From Arenibacter hampyeongensis (GTDB lineage: Bacteria > Bacteroidota > Bacteroidia > Flavobacteriales > Flavobacteriaceae): DNA of 64,000 nucleotides. The stretch lies in contig NZ_PIOB01000006.1 in the NCBI RefSeq assembly GCF_002909255.1, positions 62,001 to 126,000 on the forward strand. The letters are read 5' to 3'. The translations under genes and the position numbers were made by a program. This document shows positions 17,999-42,665 of the stretch, one piece after another (the stretch's first letter is position 1; the number at the start of each line of letters is the position of its first letter). The notes beneath the pieces were generated by a model. It had not been told where the DNA came from, made no database searches, and saw only the letters and a list, made by a program, of their open reading frames with translations.

Positions 17999-18401
17999 GG
18001 TTTAATACCTTTTAATTAAGTTTTTGAAGGGACGGGAATTAATATAATGCTGGTTTCTGTATATTTCCAAATCCCTCCGGAAGTCGAGCAACCCTTCCAC
18101 TACAACCCTCCCCGTGCGGACACGCTTCGCCGGTCCACTCGAGAAGTCTTTCCGTTCCTGTTTTCCTCGACACCCTCGGGACCGCACAAAAGTACAAGCG
18201 CCAAAAAAGTTGCTTGACCTTTTTTCACCCGACCCACAAAAAATAGTGGTATTTCATTATTTCTCAACATTTCCAAGGCATCAAATAAGACCATATAATT
18301 CTTATGCCTGTACCCATTTATATCCATATGGCCTGATATGTATTTGAGACGTAAAAAACTGATTGTTAGATTGTTATAATCAATTTTATTCTACTATATT
18401 T

Positions 18402-18464
18402 ATCCGTGTAGACGGATAGCAAGTTATGTTTTAAGCATCTTAAAACGCCTACTTCTGACGAAGT
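18402..18464. other. Three consecutive perfect hairpins upstream of mobC
   Basis: ATCCGT-GTAG-ACGGAT (18402-18417), GTTTTAAG-CAT-CTTAAAAC (18428-18446) and ACTTC-TGAC-GAAGT (18451-18464) are all perfect and follow each other within 63 bp, ending 26 bp before the mobC ATG. They could be the relaxosome recognition structures of oriT or a structured mRNA leader controlling mobC. Confidence 0.55.
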
Positions 18465-18490
18465 GAAAACTGATAATATAGAGGGAGAAA

Positions 18491-18874
18491 ATGGCAATCA
18501 ACAAAGGCGGGAGAAAACGTTTGGGGGACAGGAAGCGGGAGCATGCCATAACGCTTAGGTTCAATGGCCGGGAAATTGAAAAAGTAAAGACTATCCTGCA
18601 GTCCTATAATCTTGATTTTGCTAAAAGGGGAACCGTCGGGCCTTTTCTAAGAAAACTTATCCTAAACAGGGAAACGATAAAAGAGAAAAGGGTTCCAGAT
18701 GATATATCGAACCTCAATTACCAATTGAACAAAATAGGAGCCAACATCAACCAACTGGTAAAGGTGGCCAACTACAAGAATATGCGAAGCCCCAACTCGA
18801 ACCTGGAACGGGAGATGGAAAAAGCCAGCGAACTGATGCTCGAACTTATAGAAACGATCAACAACGGAAGTTAA
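18491..18874 (+). CDS. mobC: MobC-family relaxosome accessory protein
   Basis: 127 aa. Basic N-terminus, a ribbon-helix-helix-like start (HAITLRFNGREIEKVKTIL), then the MobC family block LNYQLNKIGANINQLVKVAN at about residues 77-96, ending in a helical tail. MobC proteins bind oriT and assist relaxase nicking. The relaxase gene follows after a single base (stop to ATG), so the two are translationally linked. GAGGGAGAAA precedes the ATG as a possible ribosome-binding site, stronger than usual for Bacteroidota. Confidence 0.88.
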   Translation: MAINKGGRKRLGDRKREHAITLRFNGREIEKVKTILQSYNLDFAKRGTVGPFLRKLILNRETIKEKRVPDDISNLNYQLNKIGANINQLVKVANYKNMRSPNSNLEREMEKASELMLELIETINNGS

Positions 18875-18875
18875 A

Positions 18876-21170
18876 ATGATAGCAAGGATACTATATCGGA
18901 ATAATGTGCAGGGGGTAATGAATTATGTATTGGGCAAGGCCGATAGCACCATACTCGGCTTCCAGAACACCTATTCGGATACCGATACCAACACAGCATT
19001 TTTCGGTAGGGTCCTTTACTATCTCGGCAATCGGCACGATTCTGAAAGACGATATGTACATGCGACTATCAATCTTCCCCGAGGCGAACATTTGGAAGAC
19101 ATCGACTTTTTTGAACTGTCCAAAGCGTACATGGAACATATGGGCTATGGAGAACAACCTTATATGGTGGTACGCCACCACGATACCAAGCACGAGCATG
19201 TCCACATAGTCTCGACCACCATAAGGGAAGATTGTCTGCAAATAAACCTTTCCAATGATTTCAAAAGGAACGTAGCGACACAGAAATACCTTGAAAAACA
19301 GTTTGGGCTCTCCTTATCGCCTGAAACACTTAAAGACAGGGAGCTTCCAATTTATCGGATCCCACAATTCAAGAACGAGGACATTAACGGGGTCAGGTTC
19401 TATATACAGGATATCACAAACAACATGCTCCAGAAGTACAAGGTGCGAAGCTTTAAAGAATTGTCCGAAATATTGAGACCGCACCACATCCAAGTAAGGA
19501 CGATGGACCACAATGGCAGGATAGGCGTATCGTTTGGCATAGAAGTGGAAGATGGATACAGATCAAGATTTATCAACGGGTCCACTGTACATCCACAACT
19601 TAGCGGTCCAAAATTGCAAAAGGTCTTTGAGCGGAACAAGCGTTCCAAACTATTGCCTATGGTACAAAAGCGTTTGGAAAAACAGATAATGACCACATTT
19701 AAATTGTTCGAGAACATACATTATGAAAACTTGCTGGATGTACTTAAATCCTATCAGAATCTGGATTGTGAATTGCTTTACGATAATGAAATGCAACCAA
19801 GTGATATTATCATCTATGATAAATCAGGATTTATATGTAGTACTTCGGAAATAGGTTCAGAAATAGATGTCGTAAACCATCCACAGATAAACAATTCCGA
19901 GGATGGGGAAACCAGCATAGATGTGGATAGCAACCAGTTTGTTCTTGAAATACAAAAACTAATAAAAAATGCCTTTTATAAATCCTACTTGGATGCCAAT
20001 AAAGGTAAAATGATGTTATCGGAATTTGTAATAATAAAAAGCTTTAAGGATTTGCTGCCCTTTTTAGCTAGTTCTGAACAATATTCATTTCTAAACCATT
20101 ATATGCCCGAAAATAATGGTAGTACCTTATTGATTTCGGTACAAAAGGAATTTGAGAGCATGCGAATGATGTTGGGTATAAAGGAATCGAAAAAAGAACT
20201 AAAAACACTGGAAAACAGGGTTTCGATTTTAAAAAAGGTATTGGAAGCCAATGTATTCGATATTTCTGGGAGCCAAACTACCTTATTTCATTTGCTACAG
20301 GGTTTAGGCCTCAAATATAGTAATGGTTCAATTTCCTATAGCAACTCCAATATCCATTCCGTTAAGATGTTCCTGGACAATTATCATATTCCAAATGAGA
20401 ATGAAGCCTACATATCCTTTGGTTGTATCAATCAAAATGAAAAGGTATTGGAAGTGTTAATGGAAGAAAAAGGGTGTAAGGCTCTTGATTTAAGCGCCAC
20501 CGCTTTTTTCCTTCCCATGTTACTGCCCCAATTATACAGTTCAATGACTCTGGATTATGGAAAGCGGTTTGAAGAACATAGCTTAAAGGCATATCTCCAT
20601 AAAACGGAACGGCTCCATTTGCCATACGAAAAATCCGCAAGCGATTATATAAAACTGTTCAACGCCAAGGGATTTAATTTTAAGCAAATAGAGGATGATA
20701 TTTGCATCAGCTCTATTTATTCAAAACATGGGGTCAGTATTCCGTTAGCATTAAAAACCCAGGCATATCTTAAATCGATCAAGAATTTGGATCAAGTGTT
20801 GAACGAGCAACCCAAAGCATTATCCAATATAATGGACGAGGGTAGGGGACAGCTCAAAAATTTATGGCTTTCTTATTTGATAGAAAAAGAATTATACGGT
20901 AAAGCTGCTTTTATGATGATCTACGATAAATTACGTCCAAATTTGGATAAGGACGTTATGGAATACCATTTAGAAAAGGGGTTGCGGGAATGGTTACTTC
21001 AAGTATCCAAACAAAAGTTGAATTCACAACAGGCAACTATTTTGCGTAGGAGTGCCTTTGCCTTCAGTTCTCTTTTGGGAGGTAGCCATTATAAGGAGGA
21101 AGAAGTATTTAATGGGTTTAAAGACGAGCTTACGGATTATTCCAAGCGAAATGGAATTTACCTCTCCTGA
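18876..21170 (+). CDS. HUH relaxase of the conjugative element
   Basis: 764 aa. N-terminal relaxase domain (about 1-250) with the three-histidine motif HHDTKHEHVHIV at residues 101-112 (H-x-D-x-x-H-x-H-x-H), preceded by the RYVHATINLPRGE strand typical of MOBP-type Bacteroidota relaxases. The catalytic Tyr is probably among those near the N-terminus (LYRNN, MNYVLG). The remaining 500 residues are not recognised and vary between elements. It nicks oriT and pilots the strand into the T4SS through the coupling protein. In related elements the coupling-protein gene usually follows closely; here it is 8 kb away, behind the cargo. Confidence 0.9.
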   Translation: MIARILYRNNVQGVMNYVLGKADSTILGFQNTYSDTDTNTAFFGRVLYYLGNRHDSERRYVHATINLPRGEHLEDIDFFELSKAYMEHMGYGEQPYMVVRHHDTKHEHVHIVSTTIREDCLQINLSNDFKRNVATQKYLEKQFGLSLSPETLKDRELPIYRIPQFKNEDINGVRFYIQDITNNMLQKYKVRSFKELSEILRPHHIQVRTMDHNGRIGVSFGIEVEDGYRSRFINGSTVHPQLSGPKLQKVFERNKRSKLLPMVQKRLEKQIMTTFKLFENIHYENLLDVLKSYQNLDCELLYDNEMQPSDIIIYDKSGFICSTSEIGSEIDVVNHPQINNSEDGETSIDVDSNQFVLEIQKLIKNAFYKSYLDANKGKMMLSEFVIIKSFKDLLPFLASSEQYSFLNHYMPENNGSTLLISVQKEFESMRMMLGIKESKKELKTLENRVSILKKVLEANVFDISGSQTTLFHLLQGLGLKYSNGSISYSNSNIHSVKMFLDNYHIPNENEAYISFGCINQNEKVLEVLMEEKGCKALDLSATAFFLPMLLPQLYSSMTLDYGKRFEEHSLKAYLHKTERLHLPYEKSASDYIKLFNAKGFNFKQIEDDICISSIYSKHGVSIPLALKTQAYLKSIKNLDQVLNEQPKALSNIMDEGRGQLKNLWLSYLIEKELYGKAAFMMIYDKLRPNLDKDVMEYHLEKGLREWLLQVSKQKLNSQQATILRRSAFAFSSLLGGSHYKEEEVFNGFKDELTDYSKRNGIYLS

Positions 21171-21242
21171 TTAATTGATTATTGAGGATATGAAAACATA
21201 GCAATGGCAATTATGCAAGTGGGAACAGGTTAATCTTAATTA

Positions 21243-21341
21243 TGAACAAGAGTAAGTTTTACCCTTATATCGATAACAAAGGTAAATTTTTGTTATATTT
21301 ACCCTCGTTAATTCAACGTAAGTAATAATTACTCTTGTTCA
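21243..21341 (+). promoter_or_regulatory. 13-bp perfect inverted repeat in the fic leader
   Basis: TGAACAAGAGTAA (21243-21255) and TTACTCTTGTTCA (21329-21341) are exact reverse complements. The right copy ends 2 bp before the fic ATG (21344). Inside lies a second inverted pair, GGTAAAT (21281-21287) and ATTTACC (21297-21303). Placement suggests operator half-sites for autoregulation, probably by the winged-helix tail of the Fic protein itself. Confidence 0.6.
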
Positions 21342-21343
21342 AA

Positions 21344-22429
21344 ATGACAGCATTTAATAGAAATACGCCATACAACAACCTACCCTTATTGCCACCGAAA
21401 GCAACCTTGGAAACTACAAAGGTGTTGCGTAAGACCATTGATGCCAGTAGGGCATTGGCACAACTAAATGGTATGCTCACCAATTTACCAAACCCAACGC
21501 TGTTTTTGGACACCATACATCTACAAGAAGCAAAAGCGAGTTCCGAAATAGAGAACATTATTACCACCAATGATGATCTGTATAAATCTATAGTGGCGGA
21601 TAAAAAGTTTGATAATCCTGCAACAAAAGAAGTGATAAGCTATAAAGAAGCCCTTTGGAATGGACTGCGCGATATAGAAAAACGCCCTTTTATAAGTACA
21701 AATTTGTGCATTGAAATTGTTCAAAGTATTAAAAAGAATACTGCTGGCATTAGAACAACACCAGGAACTGCCTTAAAAAATCCAAAAGGTGAAACTATCT
21801 ACACGCCACCTACAGGTGAAAATGTGATAAGAGAGAAATTGGCAAATCTAGAAACCTTTATTAATGGTGAAGATGCTATGGACCCATTAATAAAAATGGC
21901 ATTAATGCATTATCAATTTGAAGCAATTCACCCCTTTAACGATGGTAATGGGAGAACAGGACGTATTTTGTTGTTACTCTATTTAAAACTTGAAAAATTG
22001 CTGGATACACCTGCTATTTACTTAAGTGAGTATATTATAAAAAATAAAGCTGATTATTATAACAAACTACGTGAGGTTACCGAAAATAATGCATGGGAAT
22101 CGTGGATATTATATATGCTCGATATGGTAGAATACACTGCTAAAAAGGGATTACAGCGTTTAAAGGACGTAACCGATCTAATGCAATTAATGACCACGGA
22201 AATTAAAGAAACCTTGCCAAAAGTATATACTAAAGAGCTTGTGGAAATATTATTTAGATTGCCATATACTAAAAGACAATTTTTAATCGATGCCAAATTA
22301 GGAACACCCAAAACTGTTGGTAATTATCTAATAGCATTGGAAGAAGCTGGGTTTTTAATATCTGAAAAAGTAGGAAAGGAAAAATTATATCTCAACCATA
22401 GATTGATGGCTGTTTTAGAAGCCTCTTAA
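21344..22429 (+). CDS. Fic family protein (class II) with C-terminal winged helix
   Basis: 361 aa from the ATG at 21344; an in-frame TTG 9 bp earlier lies inside the inverted repeat and is less likely. Residues about 1-90 are the Fic_N region with the inhibitory helix motif SSEIEN ((S/T)xxxE(G/N)), which keeps class II Fic enzymes inactive. The catalytic motif HPFNDGNGRTGR is complete at residues 196-207. The C-terminus (about 290-355) looks like a winged HTH. Fic proteins AMPylate target hydroxyls using ATP. It precedes the RM-Gabija operon by 264 bp and may be a toxin-like or regulatory part of the cargo; targets are unknown. Confidence 0.9.
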   Translation: MTAFNRNTPYNNLPLLPPKATLETTKVLRKTIDASRALAQLNGMLTNLPNPTLFLDTIHLQEAKASSEIENIITTNDDLYKSIVADKKFDNPATKEVISYKEALWNGLRDIEKRPFISTNLCIEIVQSIKKNTAGIRTTPGTALKNPKGETIYTPPTGENVIREKLANLETFINGEDAMDPLIKMALMHYQFEAIHPFNDGNGRTGRILLLLYLKLEKLLDTPAIYLSEYIIKNKADYYNKLREVTENNAWESWILYMLDMVEYTAKKGLQRLKDVTDLMQLMTTEIKETLPKVYTKELVEILFRLPYTKRQFLIDAKLGTPKTVGNYLIALEEAGFLISEKVGKEKLYLNHRLMAVLEAS

Positions 22430-22693
22430 GTGTTTAGTGTCGATTTAGGAATGAAATGTACGAGTGCAATTTATACCTTTATGGAACCTCATTTATTGAA
22501 GATTCACATCAAGTCCATAATCCAAGGAATGCTAAAAATAGGGACATTTGGAAAAATAGATAATTGCAGGAAGTAGTGCAGTAAATAAAATTGAATTTTG
22601 TAAATAAAATACTAACACCCTATAGATGTTTAAAGTATTAATGCTCATTAAGTTTTACTATTTTAGACGTTCAATATTACTCTACAATAGTTA

Positions 22694-25600
22694 ATGGCAT
22701 TATTCCAAACATCCGTACTTAAATCACATCTCGCTTTACTCAACCAAGCAGCAGTCGATAAGGCATATAAAAAGTATCAAAAATACTTCTGGAACACTAC
22801 GATACAGGAAAATATCAAAAGTGCAAAAGAAGAACAATATCAAGCAACATTTCTTAATGAATTATTCGTTAATATATTAGGCTATACGTTATTTCCTAAC
22901 CCTAACTCAAACCTGACCACAGAGTTTAAAAACGAAAAGAATGCACGCAAAGCAGACGGTGCAATTCTAAAGGATGGAAGTGCTATTGGAGTTATTGAAT
23001 TAAAAGGAACCAATACGAAGGACCTAGAGAGTATTCGTCGCCAAGCGTTCGATTATAAAGCAAATCAAAAAGGATGCGTCTATGTAATCACATCAAATTT
23101 TGAAAAGCTACGTTTCTATATCAACGATGCCACGGAGTTTGAGGAGTTTGATTTGTTCACTCTTTCACAAGATAGATTTAAACTACTGTATTTATGTTTA
23201 CATATTGATAGCATTCTTAATAATACATCACTTAAAATTAAGGAAGCATCTGTTGTTAAAGAAGAGGAAATTACCAAAGCTTTTTACAAGGATTACTCAA
23301 TTTTCAAGCGTGAACTTTACCGTGATTTAGTTAAAAGAAATGCTAAAAGTGTAAAAATCAGATTAGGAGCAACTGAAGGTATTGAAAATCAAGAAGATAT
23401 TGCACGTCTCGAGAAGAATGTAAAATTAACCTTGTTCAAAAAATCACAAAAACTGATAGACCGTTTTCTATTTATATTTTTTGCTGAAGACCGGATGTTA
23501 TTGCCATCTAATTCCACGCTTCAAATATTAAATAAGTGGAAAGATGATTGGGATTTCGGCGATGAACGTCCGTTATACAATCTTTTTAAGCAGTATTTCA
23601 ATTTTCTGGACATAGGCCGCAGAGGAACAGAAAAACGGGCGGAAATCTACGCTTACAACGGCGGGCTGTTTAAACCGGATAACCTTCTTGATGCACTGGA
23701 AATCGACAATCACCTTTTGTACAAATACACAACCAAATTATCTAATTATGATTTTGAAAGTCAGGTAGATGTCAATATACTTGGGCACATTTTTGAAAAT
23801 TCCCTGAATGAAATTGAAAGTATTAACGCAGAGATAGAGGGTGATAATTTTGACAAACAGACTAGCAAGCGTAAGAAAGATGGTGTTTTCTATACACCAA
23901 AGTATATTACCAAGTATATAGTAGAAAATACAATAGGCAAGCTTTGTGAGGAAAAGAAAATTGCATTAGACTTCCACGAAGAGGAATATTTTAAAGGTCG
24001 TAAAAATCGTAATAAAACTACCATTACAAAACTTGTCAATATACTTGATGAATATCGCGAATGGTTATTACAACTGACCATTTGTGATCCTGCTTGTGGT
24101 TCAGGAGCGTTTTTAAACCAAGCTCTTGATTTTTTGATTAAGGAGCATAGCTATATTGATGAATTGAAAAATAAAATATTGGGGGGTGGTTTGCAATTCT
24201 CAGATATAGAAAATACAATTCTGGAAAACAACATTTATGGAGTTGACCTGAACGAAGAAAGCGTGGAAATCGCCAAACTTTCCCTTTGGTTACGTACTGC
24301 ACAGCCACGCCGAAAACTGAACGACTTAAGCAGCAATATCAAATGTGGGAACAGTTTAATCGATGATAAAAAAGTTGCTGGTGACAAAGCGTTTAAGTGG
24401 GAAAATGAGTTTCCTGATGTTTTTGCTGATGGTGGTTTTGATGCGGTGATCGGGAATCCGCCTTATGTTCGGCCAAGAAGCCTCAATTTCATTCAACAAG
24501 AATGGCTAATTAAAAATTTTATTTGTGCGGAAAACCAATTTGATCTATACCATTTGTTTATCGAACAAGCTGAAAATATAAAGAAACCGGATGGGATTGT
24601 TTCTTATATTCTTCCAAACGCTTTTTTAGCTAATGAAAATTCTAAGAAACTAAGAAAATACATATTGGATTTTTGCACAATCGGTACTATAATTGAATGT
24701 GGGTCAAAGGTTTTTCCAGATGCTTCAGTAGAAGTTCTTATATATATCTTTTATAGTAAGGCTGAAGTAGCTCAATTTGGTTTTCTTGAAAACACACAAT
24801 TCATGAGGTCAAATTATTTCAATCCGAAACTGTTTTATGATAATTTCAATATTAATTTCACTGTAACTCTATCAGAAACAGGGATGAAATTACATCAAAA
24901 AATAAAAAAGGCATCTCTAAAACTTGGAGACTTAACTGACGTAATGGGAGGTATTAAGGAATATCAGGTAGGAAAAGGTAAACCGGCACAAACAAAGGAA
25001 GATAGAGAGTTGTCTAGGTTTAATTCTACGTATAAAACCAATGAAACCTATGTTAAAGAAGTACGAGGTAAACATGTAAATCCATATTATTTGGATTGGA
25101 ATGAGGAGTACATAAGTTATGGGCCATGGCTTGCAGAACCAAGAAACCCCGAATTCTTTAAGGGGCCAAGACTATTTATGCGACAAATCCCAGGAAGGAA
25201 TAGACTATATGCTTGTTATACCAATGAAGACTTTGTAGTAGACCAATCGGCATACATAATAAAACCTCAGAAAGAATCTGAATTCGAAATTAAATCTATA
25301 CTTCCATTAATAAATTCTAAACTTATTTTTTGGTACTATAGAAATGAAAACAATGAATTTGACCAATTATTTCCAAAAATTAAATCAAAAGAAATTAAAA
25401 ATCTTCCGATACATATAGATTTTAAATCTGTAAAAGATAAGATGCTTGATCGAGCAAATATTCTAAATAATTTGAATGATAATCTATTTCAAAGTCTAAA
25501 AGATTTCATAAAATTCTTAATTCATACTCACATATTAAATGGGCTTTCTAAAAAACTCCAAAACTGGCACGAACTCCCTTTCAGCGACTTCATAAAAGAA

Positions 25601-25840
25601 CTCAACAAAGCCATAAAAGCAACTAATAAATTAAGAGCAGTAGAAGATTTATCACTTGTTCCAGAATTGACCAAAAAGGATGAATTTGAGTGGATGGAAC
25701 TTTTTGAGGAGAACAAGAAAAAAGCACAAGAACTACAAACGCAAATCGCCACTACAGAAATAGAAATAGACAAGATGGTTTATGAATTGTATGGGTTGAC
25801 GGAGGAGGAAATTAGGATTGTTGAGAATATAATTGAATAA
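22694..25840 (+). CDS. Type IIG restriction-modification enzyme (Eco57I/TaqI-type single chain)
   Basis: 1048 aa. An N-terminal PD-(D/E)xK nuclease motif is visible: D88 in KADGAIL, then E102-L-K104 in GVIELKG. The adenine methyltransferase core follows: motif I DPACGSGAF at 465-473, motif IV NPPY at 588-591, with a FYTPKYITKYIV block before it (SAM-binding motif X type). The C-terminal part (about 700-1048) fits a TaqI-like target recognition domain plus helical tail. Nuclease, methylase and specificity in one chain define type IIG. Its stop lies 2 bp before gajA, so it forms one operon with Gabija. Adjacent sequence is markedly AT-rich, a sign of acquired cargo. Recognition sequence unknown. 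Confidence 0.88.
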   Translation: MALFQTSVLKSHLALLNQAAVDKAYKKYQKYFWNTTIQENIKSAKEEQYQATFLNELFVNILGYTLFPNPNSNLTTEFKNEKNARKADGAILKDGSAIGVIELKGTNTKDLESIRRQAFDYKANQKGCVYVITSNFEKLRFYINDATEFEEFDLFTLSQDRFKLLYLCLHIDSILNNTSLKIKEASVVKEEEITKAFYKDYSIFKRELYRDLVKRNAKSVKIRLGATEGIENQEDIARLEKNVKLTLFKKSQKLIDRFLFIFFAEDRMLLPSNSTLQILNKWKDDWDFGDERPLYNLFKQYFNFLDIGRRGTEKRAEIYAYNGGLFKPDNLLDALEIDNHLLYKYTTKLSNYDFESQVDVNILGHIFENSLNEIESINAEIEGDNFDKQTSKRKKDGVFYTPKYITKYIVENTIGKLCEEKKIALDFHEEEYFKGRKNRNKTTITKLVNILDEYREWLLQLTICDPACGSGAFLNQALDFLIKEHSYIDELKNKILGGGLQFSDIENTILENNIYGVDLNEESVEIAKLSLWLRTAQPRRKLNDLSSNIKCGNSLIDDKKVAGDKAFKWENEFPDVFADGGFDAVIGNPPYVRPRSLNFIQQEWLIKNFICAENQFDLYHLFIEQAENIKKPDGIVSYILPNAFLANENSKKLRKYILDFCTIGTIIECGSKVFPDASVEVLIYIFYSKAEVAQFGFLENTQFMRSNYFNPKLFYDNFNINFTVTLSETGMKLHQKIKKASLKLGDLTDVMGGIKEYQVGKGKPAQTKEDRELSRFNSTYKTNETYVKEVRGKHVNPYYLDWNEEYISYGPWLAEPRNPEFFKGPRLFMRQIPGRNRLYACYTNEDFVVDQSAYIIKPQKESEFEIKSILPLINSKLIFWYYRNENNEFDQLFPKIKSKEIKNLPIHIDFKSVKDKMLDRANILNNLNDNLFQSLKDFIKFLIHTHILNGLSKKLQNWHELPFSDFIKELNKAIKATNKLRAVEDLSLVPELTKKDEFEWMELFEENKKKAQELQTQIATTEIEIDKMVYELYGLTEEEIRIVENIIE

Positions 25841-25842
25841 AT

Positions 25843-27735
25843 ATGTACGTATCAAAACTGTCAATCAAAAATTATAGGAGCTTTGAAACTTTTGAGATAA
25901 AATTAAAGCCATTTACTCAAATTATTGGAGAGAATAACATAGGGAAATCGAATATGTTAGACTCTCTTGGCTTGTTATTTAGTCAAGAAATCTCATTCTT
26001 TAAGAAGAGAGTATTAGAGGTGTCAGACTTCCACTATCCAGCACTATTAAAACTTAAAAGGGGAATTTTAGATTATGCTACTCCTGCCGATGAAATTAGT
26101 TATCCTGAAATAATTATTGAGGCTATAATGACTGATTTTACCGTTGAGCAAGAGGTAATTGTTTCTGACTGGTTTACTAATGAAAAATGTGAAGATGCAT
26201 CCTTAACATATACATTTGCACCTATTAATTCTTTCGATACTGTTGAAGAAATATTACAACAACGGCAATTTATTAATGACTTTAAGGTGGAGATTGGCGA
26301 AAAAAAATTTGCTGCTTTGTCTGAAACGGAATTACTAAACCTAATTAATTTTCCTATATCTAAATACCAATATCGCATATATGGAGGAAAAAAAGCAGAA
26401 GGAAATTATTTAAGCTATCATCATAACCAATTGAAGTTCGAACTGCTTGATGCTTTGAGAGATGCAAAAAGTGAGCTTTCAGCAAATAGGAACAATGGGC
26501 TACTTTATAGGATTTTAAATGCAAATGATGAAAAGGACTATCAAAATCTAAAGACTCAGCTAGTTGGCTTGGAGAATGCAATAGAATTGAATCCTGCTAT
26601 CGTTGGTATAAAAACAAGAATTACAGAGCAATTAGATAAGATTTCCCTTACTACGGAAAAATCAAACAACGTTGTTGATTTAATTTTTTCAATGCCTAAT
26701 GTAAGCGATCTTCTACGTAAGTTAAGCCTTATTTATAATGACAATCCAATTAAAATAGAACGCAATGGAATGGGACGTAATAATTTACTATTTATGTCCC
26801 TAATGCTATCCTTCATTGAAAACCCAGAAAAACAACATTCAACTTTTTTTAGAATAGTTGGTATTGAAGAACCGGAAGCACATCTCCACGCTAACCTACA
26901 AAATCATCTAGCTCGTAATTTTGATGAACTTATAAAAACGAAAGGAGGAGCTTACAGAAAAGACATCCAACTGCTCATTACATCTCATTCAAATCACATA
27001 ACTACAAAAATTGACTTTGAAAACACCGTAGTATTACACTACGAGAAAAATGAAGTAAAGGCTCATTATATTCTTGAGGGTTTCGGCAGCACAGCAAAAG
27101 ATATCAGGCAGATTAATTATCTTAAAAAGTACCTTGACAGTGAAAATGTCAACCTTTTTTATTCTAGAAGATTGATGTTGGTAGAAGGTATTTCTGAGAA
27201 ACTTTTGTTGCCTATATTTTATAAGGTTCAAACCGGTGTCACTATAGATCAATCGGCTTGTTCTGTAGTAAATGTAAATGGTTTAGCTTTTAAAAACTTT
27301 TTGAAAATTATTGAAAATGGTTTTCATATTAAATGCCTTGTTTTAACCGATAGTGACACTGGAACATCATCAGCTCAAAGGGCAATTGACTTAAGAAATA
27401 AATATGCTGAAAACCCAAAGGTTAATGTACAGGTATCCGAAAAAAGTACTTTTGAAAAAGATTTGATTGCAAGCAATACAATAGGATATGGGAAGGCAAC
27501 TCTATGCGAAGCACTCAAAGTAGTAAGACCAGTATCTGGTAAAATTTACGTTGATGGCTTAGAAGAAAAACCAATTGATGTTGAAAAATATTTTATGCTT
27601 ATTGAAGATTACAAAAGTGAGTTTGCCCTTCAATTATCTATATTACTTTCTGAGTCCTGGGGAGGCTTTATTATTCCTGAGTATATTAAGAATGGAATAA
27701 CATTTTTAAATCCGACAATTGCAACAAAACAATGA
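25843..27735 (+). CDS. gajA: GajA-like OLD-family ATPase/Toprim nuclease (Gabija)
   Basis: 630 aa. N-terminal ABC-type ATPase: LSIKNYRSFETFEI opening, Walker A GENNIGKS at 29-36, a signature-like region around NGMGRNNLLFMSL, Walker B VGIEEPEAHLH at 339-348, and H-loop TSHSNHI. C-terminal Toprim domain: E448 in LVEGISEKLLL, and D503/D505 in LTDSDTG, with all acidic metal ligands present. This is a class 2 OLD nuclease, defined by an adjacent UvrD-like helicase; in Gabija GajA nicks phage DNA when nucleotide pools fall. It is slightly longer than characterised GajA. It starts 2 bp after the RM gene and overlaps gajB by 4 bp. Confidence 0.9.
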   Translation: MYVSKLSIKNYRSFETFEIKLKPFTQIIGENNIGKSNMLDSLGLLFSQEISFFKKRVLEVSDFHYPALLKLKRGILDYATPADEISYPEIIIEAIMTDFTVEQEVIVSDWFTNEKCEDASLTYTFAPINSFDTVEEILQQRQFINDFKVEIGEKKFAALSETELLNLINFPISKYQYRIYGGKKAEGNYLSYHHNQLKFELLDALRDAKSELSANRNNGLLYRILNANDEKDYQNLKTQLVGLENAIELNPAIVGIKTRITEQLDKISLTTEKSNNVVDLIFSMPNVSDLLRKLSLIYNDNPIKIERNGMGRNNLLFMSLMLSFIENPEKQHSTFFRIVGIEEPEAHLHANLQNHLARNFDELIKTKGGAYRKDIQLLITSHSNHITTKIDFENTVVLHYEKNEVKAHYILEGFGSTAKDIRQINYLKKYLDSENVNLFYSRRLMLVEGISEKLLLPIFYKVQTGVTIDQSACSVVNVNGLAFKNFLKIIENGFHIKCLVLTDSDTGTSSAQRAIDLRNKYAENPKVNVQVSEKSTFEKDLIASNTIGYGKATLCEALKVVRPVSGKIYVDGLEEKPIDVEKYFMLIEDYKSEFALQLSILLSESWGGFIIPEYIKNGITFLNPTIATKQ

Positions 27736-29255
27736 AAGTTCCTAAACCAAAATTAGTGATTGCAGGTCCAGGAGCTGGAAAAACTCACGGAATGGTCGAT
27801 GAAATTATTTCTTCAATATCAGATTTAAAACCTAACCGACATATGGCAATTGTTACGTATACCAACTCTGCCACCAATAATATAAAAAGACGATTAGGAG
27901 ATAAGATTCTAATACCACCTAACGTTTTCATAGGTACTATCCATTCCTTTCTCAATCGTTATATAGTGATACCTTATTCAGGCCTTATTCATAACGATGT
28001 AAATGAGGAACTCCATTTTATTCAATGCGGTATGGATGATGTTATTGATAGAATGTTCGGAACAAAAATTGACTTCAAAGAAAAAAACTTTCACAAAAAA
28101 AGAGTTACAGAATCCATGCATAAAATGGGTTTTGTGACATTTGACCAAACTTTAAATCTGTCCGAAAAGTGTTTTGAGAATTTAAGGGTTAAGCATTTGG
28201 TTGCAAATAGACTACAGTATCTATTTGTAGATGAATTTCAAGATTCAGATAATAAAATGTTTGGTATAATCGAAAACTTAAGAAAGCAAAAGAAGACAAT
28301 AATTTATTGTGTTGGCGATCCAGAGCAATATATTCAAAGCTTCAGTGCAGCAAAAAAAGCTTTTAAAAACATACCAATATTAAAGGCATCTAGGACTAAT
28401 GTATACGACGTGACCCTTAACAAAACTAATAGAAGGTCAAATGGGGCTATAGTAAACTTTATTAATCATTTCAGCAAAAGAGCTTATCAAGATGAAACTT
28501 TTGAACAGACCAGCTATAATGTAAAAGCAGGAGAACCTGTTAAGTTTATTTCTCAAGCTGCGGACATTACTTTAATGTTGCCTCAGTTCTTTGAGTTATG
28601 TAACAAGTTGAATATCACGAAAAATGATATAGCGATAATAGCAAAAAATAATGCAGTCATCAATAAAGCCTCCATGGCTCTGGATAATAATATAATATCT
28701 CCAGTGAGAAGTTCTAAGCCATCTATGATTAATGAAATCAAAGACACCATACTCACTTCATTAAATATGAATCAGAATATGTTTTGTGAAAAGTATGGCA
28801 AAACTCCATTCGACTTAAAAGTTATGGCTGTAAAGGTTGCTCGCGCAATTAGAAATGATATTATTGAAAATGAAAATAGTTTTGCAAGTTTTCTAAAAAG
28901 TAATTTTGACCTGACTATAAATAATGAAATACCTATTGAAGTTGATAACCTCCGCCAATCAGTAGCTCCAAAGTCATTAAAAGATGCAGTCATGGTTTCC
29001 AATATCCATAAATTCAAAGGGTTAGAATCAGAAGCGGTGCTTGCAGTAGCAAAAAATGAAATAGAATTAAAACTTTGGTTGGAAACCAATACAAAAAGGA
29101 GAGATGAACACGAAGGGAATACTACTAGCGACTATCCTAGGCTTGGATACGTTGCATTTAGTAGAGCACGTCAATTATTATGCATTGCTTGTGTAGAAGT
29201 CATAAGTGATGAAACAAAAGAGAAACTACGAAATTTATCGGTGGAAATTTTATGA
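27732..29255 (+). CDS. gajB: GajB-like UvrD/PcrA-type helicase (Gabija)
   Basis: 507 aa, start overlapping the gajA stop as ATGA. A compact SF1A helicase with every motif visible: Walker A AGPGAGKT at 11-18, Ia TYTNSATNNI, Ic FIGTIHSFL, II FVDEFQD, III VGDPEQYI, IV NKTNRRS, V NIHKFKGLESEAV, VI YVAFSRARQ. Length matches GajB and is much shorter than UvrD because insertion domains are missing. In Gabija it forms a large complex with GajA and senses or consumes DNA/nucleotide signals during infection. All catalytic residues are intact, so the system is predicted to be active. Confidence 0.9.
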   Translation: MKVPKPKLVIAGPGAGKTHGMVDEIISSISDLKPNRHMAIVTYTNSATNNIKRRLGDKILIPPNVFIGTIHSFLNRYIVIPYSGLIHNDVNEELHFIQCGMDDVIDRMFGTKIDFKEKNFHKKRVTESMHKMGFVTFDQTLNLSEKCFENLRVKHLVANRLQYLFVDEFQDSDNKMFGIIENLRKQKKTIIYCVGDPEQYIQSFSAAKKAFKNIPILKASRTNVYDVTLNKTNRRSNGAIVNFINHFSKRAYQDETFEQTSYNVKAGEPVKFISQAADITLMLPQFFELCNKLNITKNDIAIIAKNNAVINKASMALDNNIISPVRSSKPSMINEIKDTILTSLNMNQNMFCEKYGKTPFDLKVMAVKVARAIRNDIIENENSFASFLKSNFDLTINNEIPIEVDNLRQSVAPKSLKDAVMVSNIHKFKGLESEAVLAVAKNEIELKLWLETNTKRRDEHEGNTTSDYPRLGYVAFSRARQLLCIACVEVISDETKEKLRNLSVEIL

Positions 29256-29394
29256 TTTTATATAAAGTAAAAAAACACCTATTCCTACTATATTTTTTTG
29301 TTTGGGTATTAAGCCTGTAACTGATTGATTTTCAGTTATCCTTTAAAAAAGTAGGATTCGAACCCTTCTGCTAACCCTATTCACGCATCTATTT

Positions 29395-29793
29395 TTAAAT
29401 CTTCTTCTTAAACTCCGTAAGGGCATTAACAATGGCAGATTCCAAATCCTTGTATTCCTCTTGAACATCGGTCTGGTAGACAATATTCTCCCCTATATTG
29501 TCCTTTGGAATGAATTCGTTATCCTCCGTAAGAATCCATGCCGGATTATAGCCCAATGAGTAATAATATAAAACCAATTTTATGGTGGTCAGTGATATGG
29601 CCCCCCGTTCTACATTGACCAAGGTATTATAGTCCATATCAAAACGTTCGGTAATCGATTTAATAGAAAACTCGCTTGAACGTTTATTGCCGGTATCCTT
29701 TTCGATCAGTTCTTCGCGAATCATTCTTAATCGTTCGCTGATGTATGCAAAATCCTCAGTGGAGGCTCTCATCATCTCGTCAATATCTTTCAT
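29395..29793 (-). CDS. XRE-like helix-turn-helix regulator
   Basis: 132 aa. Residues about 15-85 read as a Cro/XRE fold: ISERLRMIREEL, FSIKSITERFDMDYNTLVNV, ERGAISLTTIKLVLYYYS, the last matching the E-x-G-x-x-x-x-x-x-x-x-L-x-x-Y-x-L pattern. The acidic C-terminus may oligomerise or bind a ligand. It is 21 bp downstream of the coupling-protein gene on the same strand, so probably the last gene of that operon and a regulator of transfer. It also marks the right limit of the inserted cargo. Confidence 0.75.
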   Translation of the reverse strand: MKDIDEMMRASTEDFAYISERLRMIREELIEKDTGNKRSSEFSIKSITERFDMDYNTLVNVERGAISLTTIKLVLYYYSLGYNPAWILTEDNEFIPKDNIGENIVYQTDVQEEYKDLESAIVNALTEFKKKI

Positions 29794-29814
29794 GTTTTTA
29801 ATTTTAAATATAGA

Positions 29815-32340
29815 TTATTCCTTGTTCATTTCTATAGGATAGCTGGACAATAAGGTTTCCAAACTTTCCAAAGAATCATTAAATACATCTGTTTGGTTAA
29901 CCGCAGAAACACTTTCAAAAGTAGGTGTTTCATATTGCCTACGAAAGGCATCTGCCAACTCCCTGCTGGATTTACTGCGGTATTTCTTCATAAAATCTTT
30001 TGCAATGACCTCGTCCTTTTCCAGAGATCCCGCTATTTTATCGCCAATTTTGTGTTCGTCAAAAATAGCCAACTTTGGTTTATTTCCAGTACAATGAACA
30101 TATTCCCGTTCAACAAGCTCATTGATATCTTTGATCACCTTTAAAAAATTAGCATCCAGAATCCTATCTATTTCCTTGTCTATATACATGCGATCTACCA
30201 GGTTGGCAATATAATGCTGTATATTTTCGGTATGGTCGGAATGATTCTTTGTCAATTCCTCCAACTTTTGTAGATGGTCGAACAATTTTAGCTCATGGGC
30301 CAAAGGGACAAATTGAATTTGCTTTATATGATTATCGTATTGTTCAGCTGCAAACTCCTTAATGTAAGTGGTATAAAATTCCAAATAATTTGTTTGACCA
30401 AAATCGAGGTTCCGTACAACATCAAAAAAGTCAAGGCTGTGAATCAGTTTCATCTTCGAATCCACTAGTTCCTGATGATTTGCACTTTTAAATTTGTTAT
30501 GCACTGGCATTTCGTATTTCCCTTGAATTTTTTTGGATTCCATATTGGGTTTTAACAACCCAAAACACAGTTTTTGTTCAATAGGGTTTTCAAAGGTATC
30601 TGCGACAATGCCCCCAAAATGGCCTGTAGACATACTAGTAATCTTGCTTTTTGGCAACAATTCCGAAAGAATGGTACTGAAATTTACAGTGGTGTCGTTG
30701 TTGGAAATTGCCTTGCTTTTTTTTCCTTGATGGATACGTCCAAATATCTCACTGATTCTTCGGGCCGTTTCCCCTTTTGCAGCTCCACTGAACACATTGG
30801 AGCAGTTGTCAAAGATGACCTCTGCCAGTTCTCTGCCATAGTCGGCAATCAATTGTGTAATGCTTTGTATACCCAACACGGTGGCCACATAATGAGATCT
30901 TCCGGTATCGATTATCTTGCGAAGTCCCATAATGAAAACGGTTGGGAGTTCATCCAGGATAAGACCCAAAGGCCTACAGCCAGGTTTATTTACCACTTGC
31001 AAAATTTTATTAATATAGAGTCCTATTGGAGCGGCATAGATTTCAGAACGGTCCGGATTATTTTGAATACAGACTATTTTAGGTTTTTGCGGGTTATTGA
31101 TGTCCAAACGAAAATCGTTGCCTGTCATGATATAATAGATTTCCTTGCTGGCCAGCATGGAAAGGGATATCTGAGCGCTTGCGGTCTGACCGGCCAGCTG
31201 CTGGCCTGCTTGCCGCTCCATGGCATCCTTGAACGGAATCATCAGACTGCGGACTTCTACTTCCCTCATCATAATTTCCAACAAGTATTCAATGTTTATT
31301 GTAGATAACGTTATGACATGTGGCAAAGTGCAGATATTCTCACCCGTCTCCTCGGATTTTTTCTTCAAGTACCAGATCAGCCCCGAAACAAAACTAATGG
31401 CACTTTTTGAAAAAAAATCACTGCGCTTTATCCAATCTTTATTCAGATTTTTCATGATAATTGTAGCAGCATCTGCGGCATCGGTCTGGTTTCGCATTAA
31501 ATATGGGTCGATAGGGTTACAGCGATGCGATTTTTCTATATTGTCAAAACTCAAGGTATAAAACTCGGGTAGTTTGGATTTTTCTTGAACATCGTTTGTG
31601 CGCTCCTTTTTTCTGCGCCAATAGTTGTAGGCCACCTTACTAAGCGTATCGAACTTAAAATCATAAATCAATAGCGTAAAGTTCTTTTCTATCATTTGCT
31701 CTATAATCTCTTCGATCAGCGCAAAGGATTTTCCACTACCTGGTGTACCTATAACCAATAAGGCCCGGAACAAGTTGACAAAATTTATCCACCCTTTCCT
31801 TAGTTGCCCTTGGTAATGGTATTCATAGGGAATGTTTACGGAATACTTGGTATCTATGCGTTCTTCCATCTGCTGAAATGTTTCGTTCCGATCGTTAAAA
31901 GGGTCATCCTCGGCATCATTGACAAAGTCCATCACCTGGAAAAGATGTACCGAACCAGAAACAGAAAATAGGAAACCGATATTATATAAAATCAAAGAGT
32001 ACCAGAGCAAACTGATTTGGGAAGGTTTAAAATATCCTGTTATAAATAACAGTACACAGCCAATTCCAAAATACGTTAGGCCGGTCAAAAATGATTTGCC
32101 CTCTTTTTTTCTGGGATTATATAGCATTACCGAACCTAAAATGAACATCAATAACATTGTTCTTCCGGGTAAGGGCTTTTGCAAAGGCTTAAATCGAATA
32201 AGGAAATCATGTATGATTTGTGAAAGTTGTGAATCACATTCCAGATATTGCACGATCGGGTAATAGGAAATAAAGCCTATAATAGCAAAAAAGGTTACCG
32301 AAAGTAGCATGGCCGAGAATGCCAGATTCTTGTCGTTCAT
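29815..32340 (-). CDS. Type IV coupling protein (TraG/VirD4-like)
   Basis: 841 aa. The N-terminal region has several membrane segments (LAFSAMLLSVTFFAIIGFI, TMLLMFILGSVMLY, GIGCVLLFITGYF, LILYNIGFLFSVSG). The motor domain has Walker A GTPGSGKSF near residue 203 and a TraM-recognition-like region (LGLILDELPTVFI, with Walker B Asp-Glu; GIQSITQLIADYG). It links the relaxosome to the T4SS channel and pumps DNA using ATP. The family matches the Bacteroidota mobilisation/coupling proteins (YWF-type). The C-terminal 200 residues are helical and less conserved. It is separated from the relaxase by 8 kb and lies on the opposite strand. Confidence 0.9.
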   Translation of the reverse strand: MNDKNLAFSAMLLSVTFFAIIGFISYYPIVQYLECDSQLSQIIHDFLIRFKPLQKPLPGRTMLLMFILGSVMLYNPRKKEGKSFLTGLTYFGIGCVLLFITGYFKPSQISLLWYSLILYNIGFLFSVSGSVHLFQVMDFVNDAEDDPFNDRNETFQQMEERIDTKYSVNIPYEYHYQGQLRKGWINFVNLFRALLVIGTPGSGKSFALIEEIIEQMIEKNFTLLIYDFKFDTLSKVAYNYWRRKKERTNDVQEKSKLPEFYTLSFDNIEKSHRCNPIDPYLMRNQTDAADAATIIMKNLNKDWIKRSDFFSKSAISFVSGLIWYLKKKSEETGENICTLPHVITLSTINIEYLLEIMMREVEVRSLMIPFKDAMERQAGQQLAGQTASAQISLSMLASKEIYYIMTGNDFRLDINNPQKPKIVCIQNNPDRSEIYAAPIGLYINKILQVVNKPGCRPLGLILDELPTVFIMGLRKIIDTGRSHYVATVLGIQSITQLIADYGRELAEVIFDNCSNVFSGAAKGETARRISEIFGRIHQGKKSKAISNNDTTVNFSTILSELLPKSKITSMSTGHFGGIVADTFENPIEQKLCFGLLKPNMESKKIQGKYEMPVHNKFKSANHQELVDSKMKLIHSLDFFDVVRNLDFGQTNYLEFYTTYIKEFAAEQYDNHIKQIQFVPLAHELKLFDHLQKLEELTKNHSDHTENIQHYIANLVDRMYIDKEIDRILDANFLKVIKDINELVEREYVHCTGNKPKLAIFDEHKIGDKIAGSLEKDEVIAKDFMKKYRSKSSRELADAFRRQYETPTFESVSAVNQTDVFNDSLESLETLLSSYPIEMNKE

Positions 32341-32413
32341 TATGAAATTGAGTGGTTATAATTTACTTAGCATAGATTGCCCCTTAATTCTTCTATTATG
32401 GAGCTCATGAGAA

Positions 32414-33970
32414 TCATTCTATCGAGTTTTGTAAGTTATTGTTATTCTTTATTTCCCCTTTCATTTTTTCAGGAGTAAGGGGAGCATTTTTCTTTAAATG
32501 CGCCCTGATTTCAGAAAAGGGAATGGTATAGCTAAATTTCAATCCAAAATCGCATTCCACGCTGTTGCTATTTATTGATTTTATGATACCAAGGTTAGGT
32601 GCGCCTTCAGGCCCTTTGGTTGTTTTCAATTCAATTTGATCACCGATGACCATAACATCTGCGCTTACAGTCCCCATTTTAACATATTTCACCTTCTTGG
32701 AATCCCTTAGGTCATCGTTCCAATCCTTGCCTTTTGATTTATGGATAGTGATTGGGAACGGTAGATAAAAATCGGTAATGGTTTCTATCAAGGATTTGAA
32801 CAGATTTTTTACTCTTTCAGGCTGATCGTTATTTATGATTTCAGATAAGGAAAATTCCAATACAATCTTGTCTTTATATTTTATCCATTCGATAGAATTC
32901 GACATAAGTTTATCCCATTCTAGTTGGGACGTTAATTTTTCCTCCAGCAAGGTGATATGATTGGTCAATTGAACCCCGACTTCTGAGGTGTTGTTAATGG
33001 TTAGCCTTACATTTCCGTGGCTATATGAACTTTCCAAATATACATTTGGATTAAAACGGTTGATAAGGCTGCTAAACAACTTTAGGTCAAACTCGAAACC
33101 TTTGATATCATTGTCCATTATGGATATCATGGATACACTGTTTGTCTTAAGGTAAGGTTCGGTTAGTTGACCGAAGAAATCTAACTTTTTTTGATAAACG
33201 TTGCCACTAAAGGATACATAAAAATTATCTGGACTACCATGTAGTTCATGGTAGGAGAGGAGGTCTATGCCACTTTCCCCGACTACAATTTTGTATGGAT
33301 TCTTGATGGGACTTGAATGAAATAGAAAATGATCCTTTTGGTTCAGTACGAGGCGAAACTTTTTAATTTTATTGTCTCTACTGCTCTTATATGTTTTATT
33401 GTAGAGGATATAATTTTGGGGATAGCCTTCCAAATCGTACTTTGGAAAAGCAATATTGGCGAACTGATAGCCATTTTCCACAGTGGGATACGCATTATAA
33501 ATACGGCCCTTAAATATAGGGCTGTTTAAAGTTGTCTTGGAAATACCCCGTTGTAGCCTTAGATAACTTGAATTCCGTAATGGAACAATGGTAAAATTAT
33601 CCTCCAAGGATTTTCTCACGGTATTGGTATCTCTAACTTCCATAGGTATATTTCCAATATAACCAGTCCAGTTCACAATTTCTAGTCCGGCTTGCACGGC
33701 CTGGTAAAAATTCGCGTTCCTCCGCATCAAAAACCCAAAGAAAAGGCCTTTGTCCTGGGAATCGTTTCGGTTGAAATAGGTTACCGGCTCTCTGGCAATT
33801 TGTAGAACAATGCGGTCTCTGTCATTCTTGAATTCCATAGAACCTGCACTTTTCTTAATCAATTTGTATCCATTTTGATATAAGTACGTCGGAAAATTGG
33901 CCTCAGTATTGATTTTTGAAATCAATCTTTTATAATATTCAGGGTCATCTATGTAATTAGAACTTTGCAT
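32414..33970 (-). CDS. Toprim domain protein (DUF3991-like), primase-related
   Basis: 518 aa. The N-terminal 100 residues resemble the DUF3991-type region. A Toprim fold appears at about 225-305: VVGESGIDLLSYHEL (catalytic Glu) and SMISIMDNDIKGFEFD (Asp-x-Asp). The C-terminus is mixed with a Lys/Asn tail. Toprim proteins of this class in Bacteroidota conjugative elements are thought to prime or process the transferred strand. It lies 73 bp upstream of the coupling-protein gene in the same operon. A shorter paralogue-like protein with a decayed Toprim motif lies 1 kb upstream (35004-36227). Confidence 0.7.
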   Translation of the reverse strand: MQSSNYIDDPEYYKRLISKINTEANFPTYLYQNGYKLIKKSAGSMEFKNDRDRIVLQIAREPVTYFNRNDSQDKGLFFGFLMRRNANFYQAVQAGLEIVNWTGYIGNIPMEVRDTNTVRKSLEDNFTIVPLRNSSYLRLQRGISKTTLNSPIFKGRIYNAYPTVENGYQFANIAFPKYDLEGYPQNYILYNKTYKSSRDNKIKKFRLVLNQKDHFLFHSSPIKNPYKIVVGESGIDLLSYHELHGSPDNFYVSFSGNVYQKKLDFFGQLTEPYLKTNSVSMISIMDNDIKGFEFDLKLFSSLINRFNPNVYLESSYSHGNVRLTINNTSEVGVQLTNHITLLEEKLTSQLEWDKLMSNSIEWIKYKDKIVLEFSLSEIINNDQPERVKNLFKSLIETITDFYLPFPITIHKSKGKDWNDDLRDSKKVKYVKMGTVSADVMVIGDQIELKTTKGPEGAPNLGIIKSINSNSVECDFGLKFSYTIPFSEIRAHLKKNAPLTPEKMKGEIKNNNNLQNSIE

Positions 33971-33982
33971 AGGAAGGATGTA

Positions 33983-34015
33983 AAATGGCCGACATGCTTG
34001 GCGTGTCGGCCATTT
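33983..34015 (-). terminator. Perfect 12-bp hairpin between operon genes
   Basis: AAATGGCCGACA (33983-33994) pairs exactly with TGTCGGCCATTT (34004-34015) around a 9-nt loop. It lies between the DUF3945-like and Toprim genes. Leftward transcripts meet TTTT after the stem, so it may act as a partial terminator or RNA-processing site that lowers expression of downstream genes. Confidence 0.5.
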
Positions 34016-42588: not shown

Positions 42589-42665
42589 TGGTAGCGAGAG
42601 GGGGGCACGATCCCCCGACCTCCGGGTTATGAATCCGACGCTCTAACCAACTGAGCTACCTCGCC
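42589..42665 (-). tRNA. tRNA-Met (anticodon CAT), CCA encoded
   Basis: 77 nt on the minus strand. Acceptor 5' GGCGAGG pairs with 3' TCTCGCT (two wobble ends); D-arm with AGCTCAGTTGGTTAGAGC; anticodon loop with CAT between GGATT and AACCC; then a T-arm with 5-bp G/C stem and encoded ACCA end. The D-loop (GTTGGTTAGAG) and lack of the three G-C pairs favour elongator Met (or an Ile2 tRNA with modified C) over initiator. The T-loop reads ATCGTGC, not TTCGAnn. Its 3' end points toward the ICE. Confidence 0.93.

Follow-up and report, generated by a model that had tools for sequence, protein, structure and literature searches.

Type IIG restriction-modification (RM) enzymes of the Eco57I/MmeI-like kind (PADLOC family PDLC03609) carry a PD-(D/E)xK endonuclease, an N6-adenine methyltransferase and a TaqI-like specificity region on one chain, and Gabija consists of an OLD ATPase-Toprim protein, GajA, followed by a UvrD-like helicase, GajB, the two genes overlapping. 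Integrative and conjugative elements (ICEs) of the SXT/R391 type carry cargo hotspots. Their cargo varies from one related element to the next, while the transfer genes on either side of it are conserved (PMC2791158). For RM genes of Helicobacter pylori, a change of specificity through movement of recognition domains has been proposed (PMC3077401, PMC3983042), and in BREX operons a modification-based defence is closely linked to an OLD ATPase nuclease module, the OLD-ABC/Toprim backup effectors, which the authors relate to operons named PARIS and Gabija (PMC12839542); the idea of a modification system with an OLD-ATPase second layer is already in print there. Here we describe a locus that has something in common with each of these: a type IIG RM gene directly followed by gajA and gajB on a 64,000-nucleotide stretch of Arenibacter hampyeongensis DNA (contig NZ_PIOB01000006.1, positions 62,001 to 126,000; the whole stretch is called the window, and all positions are those of the window). 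In the titles and abstract openings that were covered, mostly outside the subscription literature, no description of a type IIG-Gabija operon or of this slot was found; Gabija combined with CRISPR is treated in PMC12322248.

It is our belief, at a probability of roughly 0.82, that the three genes occupy the defence cargo slot of a conjugative-type element of the Flavobacteriaceae, and that this slot holds two separable phage defences, RM and Gabija. Most likely, the RM gene is the constant leader of the slot, with a specificity region and a downstream defence that can both be swapped. The pairing of RM and Gabija is real, operon-like and recurrent, but it is replaceable, and the data do not support an obligate unit. 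The block, its parts and its edges are the following:

22694-25840, + strand: RM gene, type IIG, 1048 aa, a single open frame
22694-24465, + strand: constant part of the RM gene, aa 1-590, with PD-(D/E)xK and N6-adenine methyltransferase motifs (Eco57I and N6_Mtase domains)
24470-25545, + strand: specificity (target recognition) region of the RM gene, starting right after NPPY (TaqI_C, DNA comparison)
25546-25840, + strand: conserved 3' tail of the RM gene, about 95 codons or 285 bp (DNA comparison)
25829-25843, no strand: junction C, at the RM end; sister elements diverge at 25829-25834, and Gabija homology to locus L063 begins at 25838
25843-27735, + strand: gajA, OLD-type ATPase plus Toprim nuclease, 630 aa (PDLC00077, AAA_15, OLD-like_TOPRIM)
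27732-29255, + strand: gajB, UvrD-like helicase, 507 aa (PDLC00118, helicase motifs)
29256-29394, no strand: junction D, where the slot ends on the right; homology to six sister elements resumes at 29350-29391

The initial annotation of this DNA had described an RM gene stopping 2 bp before gajA and an ATGA overlap of gajA with gajB, and the open reading frame (ORF) coordinates bear out both: the RM stop codon TAA lies at 25838-25840 with the ATG of gajA 2 bp downstream, and gajA and gajB share the 4 bp ATGA. The RM motifs it had named are likewise all in place (D88, E102 and K104 of PD-(D/E)xK, DPACGSG at 465, NPPY at 588). The protein matches the PADLOC model REase_MTase_IIG, PDLC03609 (E 2.4e-264, best stretch aa 1-690), as well as the Pfam domains Eco57I, N6_Mtase and TaqI_C (789-906), and is of type IIG in that endonuclease, methyltransferase and specificity region lie in one open chain. 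The Gabija module, which had been called complete, is matched by PADLOC over nearly its full length: GajA by PDLC00077 (E 2.1e-235, aa 1-623) and GajB by PDLC00118 (E 3e-156, aa 2-506). In Pfam, the former matches AAA_15 (1.2e-37) and OLD-like_TOPRIM (7.8e-16), and the latter UvrD-helicase. This is the make-up that defines Gabija, namely a GajA with OLD-type ATPase and Toprim and a UvrD-like GajB directly downstream. We take GENNIGKS (29), EEPEAHLH (342) and TDSD (502) in GajA, and GPGAGKT (12), DEFQD (167), HKFKGLE (426) and AFSRAR (475) in GajB, to have their usual meaning as motifs of these proteins. The PDB matches include solved chains of both GajA and GajB, the best GajA chain at E 2.8e-7. 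As the family matches are strong and the motifs intact, all three genes look functional, judging from sequence.

The evidence that carries our reading comes from the same slot in sister elements. The comparison covers 18 genomes of the window's genus, where both sides of the slot are readable in seven elements, and the left side alone in that of G007. The order MobB relaxase, Fic, RM is found in the slot of five of the 18 genomes (G000, which is the window, G004, G016, G006 and G007), and each of these five slots has a different module 3' of the RM gene; three further slots do without this RM:

G000 (window): Gabija, PDLC00077
G004 (L128): Gabija, PDLC00093, plus a 572-aa gene
G016 (L218:11594-16396): proteins of 614 aa, SLATT_5, 314 aa and 373 aa, of which only SLATT_5 is recognisable
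G006 (L222:3482-9528): an 83-aa protein, DUF2779, a 5'-nucleotidase (PADLOC candidate PDC-S08) and a 1034-aa UvrD helicase
G007: two DUF3800 genes and more (left side only)
G011, without this RM: type I HsdM and HsdR, plus a dGTPase
G005, without this RM: type I HsdM and HsdR
G003, without this RM: a C5-cytosine methylase and a HEF_HK/HATPase protein

In particular, the specificity region and tail of the RM gene in G016 are 98-99% identical in DNA to those of the window, yet G016 has no Gabija there. A nearly identical RM end with another partner, and a seam at the RM stop codon, argue against an obligate pairing. What is more, in the two slots that do hold Gabija, those of the window and G004, the GajA proteins are only 28% identical over their best 262 residues and 21% identical in a ten-protein alignment.

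The RM gene itself has constant 5' and 3' parts and, between them, a specificity region that varies. Its constant part is 83-93% identical in DNA to those of G004, G006 and G016 and 78% identical to that of G007, and its 3' tail is present in all five RM-bearing slots, at 82-98% DNA identity to the four sisters. The specificity region between them is 99% identical in G016 and has no DNA match in G004, G006 or G007. DNA comparison places the seams flanking this region at 24467-24472 and 25545-25552, and further seams where RM ends (25829-25834) and just ahead of the gene of a 132-aa protein (29350-29391). On the left, blastn shows divergence after Fic at 22504 in G005 and G011, and near the start of Fic, at 21383, in G003. 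From 18500 to about 23000, that is, into the RM gene, the window is approximately 100% identical to G006 and drops beyond; from 24300 to 25834, over specificity region and tail, it is about 99% identical to G016; and its downstream module is unrelated to both until 29353 and 29374, respectively. The Gabija block, in turn, aligns at 78.5% DNA identity to L063, a locus of an uncultured Aquimarina, from 25838, within the RM stop codon, to 29242. By its sequence, then, the window is a recombinant mosaic, and its seams include some within the RM gene and one at the stop codon of that gene. As its module is shared with neither sister and the homology to L063 starts at the RM stop, the joint between RM and Gabija looks like one recombination product among several.

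How such a slot might work can be put as follows. By methylating adenine at N6, the RM enzyme would label the DNA of host and element, and it would cut DNA that lacks this label. Gabija would act on phage DNA independently of it, and the two would form layers each able to work alone. A promoter upstream of RM would drive all three genes as one transcript, and related elements would exchange modules by homologous recombination, using the constant RM parts and the transfer genes as arms. A Bacteroidota-type promoter pattern has no match before RM or gajA, and with three matches in the window against 4.15 expected it is uninformative here.

Beyond the genus, the RM family was followed in 395 Bacteroidota genomes, 24 of them matching at 1e-60 (20 were taken in; G000 is the window, and G149, G338 and G441 were omitted), in 397 genomes of the family (55 matching, every listed locus being used) and in the 18 of the genus (5 matching). 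This gave 84 RM loci including the window, with less than 400 bp after the RM gene in L074, L150, L164 and L177 and with some RM copies broken. At 60 of the 84 there is at least one contiguous gene downstream on the same strand (within 250 bp). The domain tally of these followers covers 100 of 108 downstream proteins, eight having been set aside by eye as transport or other non-defence proteins; it applies to loci other than the window, L218, L222, L246 and L247, takes the best 25 of 59 and of 163 families, and yields no fractions. Among the Pfam and PADLOC matches listed there are Piwi/pAgo, TIR/ThsB, GmrSD_N and DUF3800 (three each), Shedu, Mrr_cat and SIR2 (two each), McrBC and AAA_13 (one each), and OLD-like_TOPRIM with GajA (two, the window's pair not counted). 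In L124 and L147 the Shedu (SduA_C) ORF overlaps the RM end. Since the followers are so diverse, the RM gene is better seen as the leader of varied defence clusters in which Gabija is one partner. A family of 462-572 aa lies 3' of the RM gene at five of the 84 loci (L128:4101-5819, L073, L146, L148 and L160) and is a candidate novel defence gene; Pfam gives no match to its L128 and L073 members, nor does PADLOC to the one in L128.

Gabija lies 3' of the RM gene at three of the 84 loci: the window, L128 (G004) and L161 (G806). At the other 81, of which four have less than 400 bp downstream, none is seen; at one of these, L150, a helicase-like ORF with a weak GajB match lies upstream on the opposite strand, with no GajA. 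From the side of Gabija the picture is similar. A pattern-based scan for this GajA subfamily in a named-genome collection (84,980 species), a method that can miss relatives, gave ten loci, nine with readable upstream DNA, and a homologue of this RM was found at none of the ten and thus at none of the nine. The closest gajA relative, that of L063 (86% protein identity), has unrelated genes upstream. With a GajA profile, the 397 genomes of the family yielded 25 rows: 13 above 390 bits, three near 250 bits and nine weaker (91-182 bits); leaving out the last nine, 16 loci were counted, of which three, the window included, have GajA behind this RM (in L161 with one ORF between), and in the stretches covered for the remaining 13, two of them with little upstream DNA, no homologue of this RM was found. 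On plasmids, no methyltransferase gene is listed, in a gene table that is incomplete, near the eight of 152 records of GajA relatives that were covered (H1, H2, H5, H13, H17, H34, H35 and H40); one of these neighbourhoods has a restriction endonuclease on the opposite strand and a Shedu gene behind the helicase. In turn, of 38 plasmid matches to the RM enzyme three neighbourhoods were viewed, and one of them has Gabija nearby. GajA patterns had no match in viral contigs, nor did the three-gene DNA in phage records.

Several points weigh against our reading. A DNA methyltransferase gene is present in all eight readable slots (five type IIG, two HsdM and one C5-cytosine methylase), and therefore a modification gene may matter to the slot. 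Three Gabija subfamilies (PDLC00077, 00093 and 00063) are found behind this RM family, and on a Pontibacter plasmid (L030) a fourth, PDLC00079, lies near a 35%-identical RM homologue in a different gene order. Moreover, under uniform placement of genes, adjacency in two of the four co-occurring genomes other than the window has p 9e-5, and adjacency in one of three outside this slot has p 0.011. Such recurrence together with above-chance adjacency makes some functional preference for the RM-Gabija pairing possible. That said, the uniform null takes no account of the preference of both kinds of gene for mobile defence slots, and the distance was set post hoc; for these reasons the statistic shows clustering, not function. 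Counted by genome, RM and GajA co-occur weakly (p 0.023 with the window and 0.066 when it is left out). It should also be noted that a locus "without RM" is one without a phmmer homologue of this very enzyme, other types of RM having stayed outside the screen, and that at L063 a gene for a type I HsdM lies about 3.4 kb 3' of gajB. In four of the 12 genomes with the right-flank marker (G001, G008, G010 and G012) 1.9-9.9 kb lie on the left, no MobB is seen there, and the slot was left unassigned on that side. Finally, both the recombination mechanism and the co-transcription are inferences.

Would the data be better explained if RM, GajA and GajB were one machine, with methylation status gating Gabija? 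The three-gene defence operon of the initial annotation stands as far as the tight same-strand order and the completeness of RM and Gabija are concerned, and such a machine could point to the spacings of 2 bp and 4 bp and to the return of the pairing in G004, in G806 and, in another order, on the Pontibacter plasmid. A short distance between RM and gajA was, however, rejected as a sign of coupling: 42 of 79 RM loci have a same-strand ORF at most 51 bp downstream (three of the 42 being RM fragments), and such tight spacing is ordinary operon density. A dedicated composite system would be expected as the same gene set recurring as a unit in unrelated contexts. What the recurrence check proposed with the annotation brought up is RM-Gabija pairs at 3/84 RM loci, 0/9 informative close GajA loci and 3/16 family GajA loci; partly favouring the machine, the pairing did return in those three places, with other Gabija subfamilies. 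With 81 of 84 RM loci lacking Gabija, a different module behind the nearly identical RM end of G016, and two in-slot GajA proteins as far apart as given above, the single machine is very improbable, and it was dropped as the principal explanation after the slot comparison. A caution on adjacency comes also from a Vibrio island, in which two neighbouring systems, GrwAB and a Shedu gene, proved independent of each other (PMC12137116).

A looser kind of cooperation would leave the proteins separate and put them in series: RM cuts, a host exonuclease degrades the ends, and in phages that block the exonuclease the ends left over are attacked by Gabija. That three Gabija subfamilies have joined this RM family fits with it, but we know of no DNA-end link for most of the named RM partners (TIR, pAgo, GmrSD, SIR2, DUF3800). 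The series is plausible because the Gabija of Pseudomonas aeruginosa PA14 has been proposed to act on linear DNA lacking loaded RecBCD, which phage proteins keep off, with phage RecBCD antagonists sensitising to it (PMC12407980), and Shedu, found behind this RM at two loci, is called DNA-end sensing in the same paper. On the other hand, Gabija does not target injected ends in general according to that paper, and earlier work favoured nucleotide depletion, a model which the paper disputes. On balance, we consider the series rather unlikely, though there is a real chance that DNA ends made by RM feed Gabija.

Gabija could also be a guard, restrained while RM works and released when a phage anti-restriction protein inhibits RM. 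PrrC and PARIS guard restriction systems, and at L176 an AAA_13 ATPase gene, presumably of PrrC/RloC-like type, lies 50 bp downstream of this RM. OLD-family ATPase modules have been read as backup effectors in BREX operons, and AriA of PARIS senses Ocr (PMC12839542). A change of partner behind an almost identical RM end sits badly with a specific protein contact, though, and makes a guard quite improbable. The least probable proposal, in our opinion, is that RM keeps the element by addiction, with Gabija a mere passenger. Its appeal is that RM comes first in the cargo behind Fic in five of the eight slots with a readable left flank, the other three carrying other methyltransferase genes; but the slots of G003, G005 and G011 manage without this RM, and type IIG enzymes, being single chains, make weak candidates for addiction. 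We therefore return to a slot with two separable defences led by a constant RM gene. One can, tentatively, go a step further and propose for this gene the role of a general docking leader: the constant 5' part and the 3' tail of about 285 bp would allow the exchange of specificity and of whole modules, and the cuts of the enzyme would trigger DNA-end-sensing nucleases (three Gabija subfamilies, and Shedu at two loci). If true, a self-marking, DNA-cutting first layer would be combined with many second layers.

The element around the slot is known from these features:

18491-18874, + strand: MobC-like mobilisation protein, left flank of the slot (Pfam MobC 6e-6)
18876-21170, + strand: MobB-type relaxase, 764 aa (Pfam Relaxase 1e-19; NCBIfam Bacteroid_MobB 7.5e-30, its score of 104 bits being under the model cut-off of 400)
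21335-22429, + strand: Fic of SoFic type, left edge of the variable slot (PADLOC SoFic 6.7e-115; NCBIfam SoFic score 418.6 bits, under the 550-bit cut-off)
22430-22693, + strand: Fic-RM intergenic leader (blastn breakpoints, sequences)
29395-29793, - strand: 132-aa protein without a family, right-flank marker of the element
29815-32340, - strand: TraG/TraD-type coupling protein (Pfam T4SS-DNA_transf 5e-22, TraG-D_C 9e-15)

The DNA of MobC and MobB is 99.9% identical to that of G006. MobC is present in six of the seven sister stretches compared, the seventh, L219, beginning within MobB, and Fic in seven of the eight slots with a readable left flank, with a short remnant, seen by eye, in the eighth, G003. 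For the 132-aa protein, Pfam, PADLOC and NCBIfam all came up empty at E 0.001, and its gene occurs in 12 of the 18 genomes of the genus. Left of the block lie further transfer genes, for a TraG P-loop ATPase (P-loop_TraG) and for TraQ (TraQ_transposon). The ICE setting suggested at the outset is thereby supported in the form of a conjugative-type element, as the window has genes for a relaxase, a coupling protein and a transfer ATPase. Near 29350 a tRNA-like attachment site looked suggestive by eye but was rejected: the only tRNA found by ARAGORN in the window is tRNA-Met at 42589-42665, Rfam gave for 18000-34000 a single match, elsewhere and far under its gathering score, and the stretch is dissimilar among sister slots.

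Further Fic genes lie close to Gabija at L236 and on L030, the Pontibacter plasmid. Separately, L063, L161, L162 and L229 appear, from flanking genes shared by eye, to belong to a second mobile-element hotspot, in which L063 and L229 have Gabija without this RM, L161 has RM, a 291-aa ORF and Gabija, and L162 has RM and a 1039-aa protein with an SMC/AAA-like ATPase match.

Neighbouring defence genes are often read as one new system, and the sister elements described here amount to a natural experiment on such a reading. In this sense, the slot is more interesting than the pair: one RM gene, with both its specificity and its downstream defence variable, suggests that mobile elements can reshuffle defence one module at a time while operon position is kept. 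The comparison also gives a list of unknown genes recurring 3' of the same RM, which are candidates for new defences.

Compared with the systems described so far, then, the enzyme differs from other type IIG RM enzymes of the Eco57I/MmeI-like kind in heading variable defence clusters and in having a specificity region that differs, between constant flanks, from one sister element to another. In contrast to the H. pylori RM genes, where the recognition domains are proposed to move (PMC3077401, PMC3983042), here the downstream genes differ too, and they do so in the cargo slot of a transfer element. The Gabija module stands apart from known ones in lying directly 3' of a type IIG RM stop codon and in belonging to a subfamily, PDLC00077, far from the solved GajA proteins. 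Unlike in BREX operons with OLD effectors (PMC12839542), the leader is a single type IIG enzyme, and the partner changes between near-identical elements. Finally, whereas the SXT/R391 elements (PMC2791158) offer the closest likeness in layout, the present element is one of Bacteroidota, and its seams run inside a defence gene that stays put.

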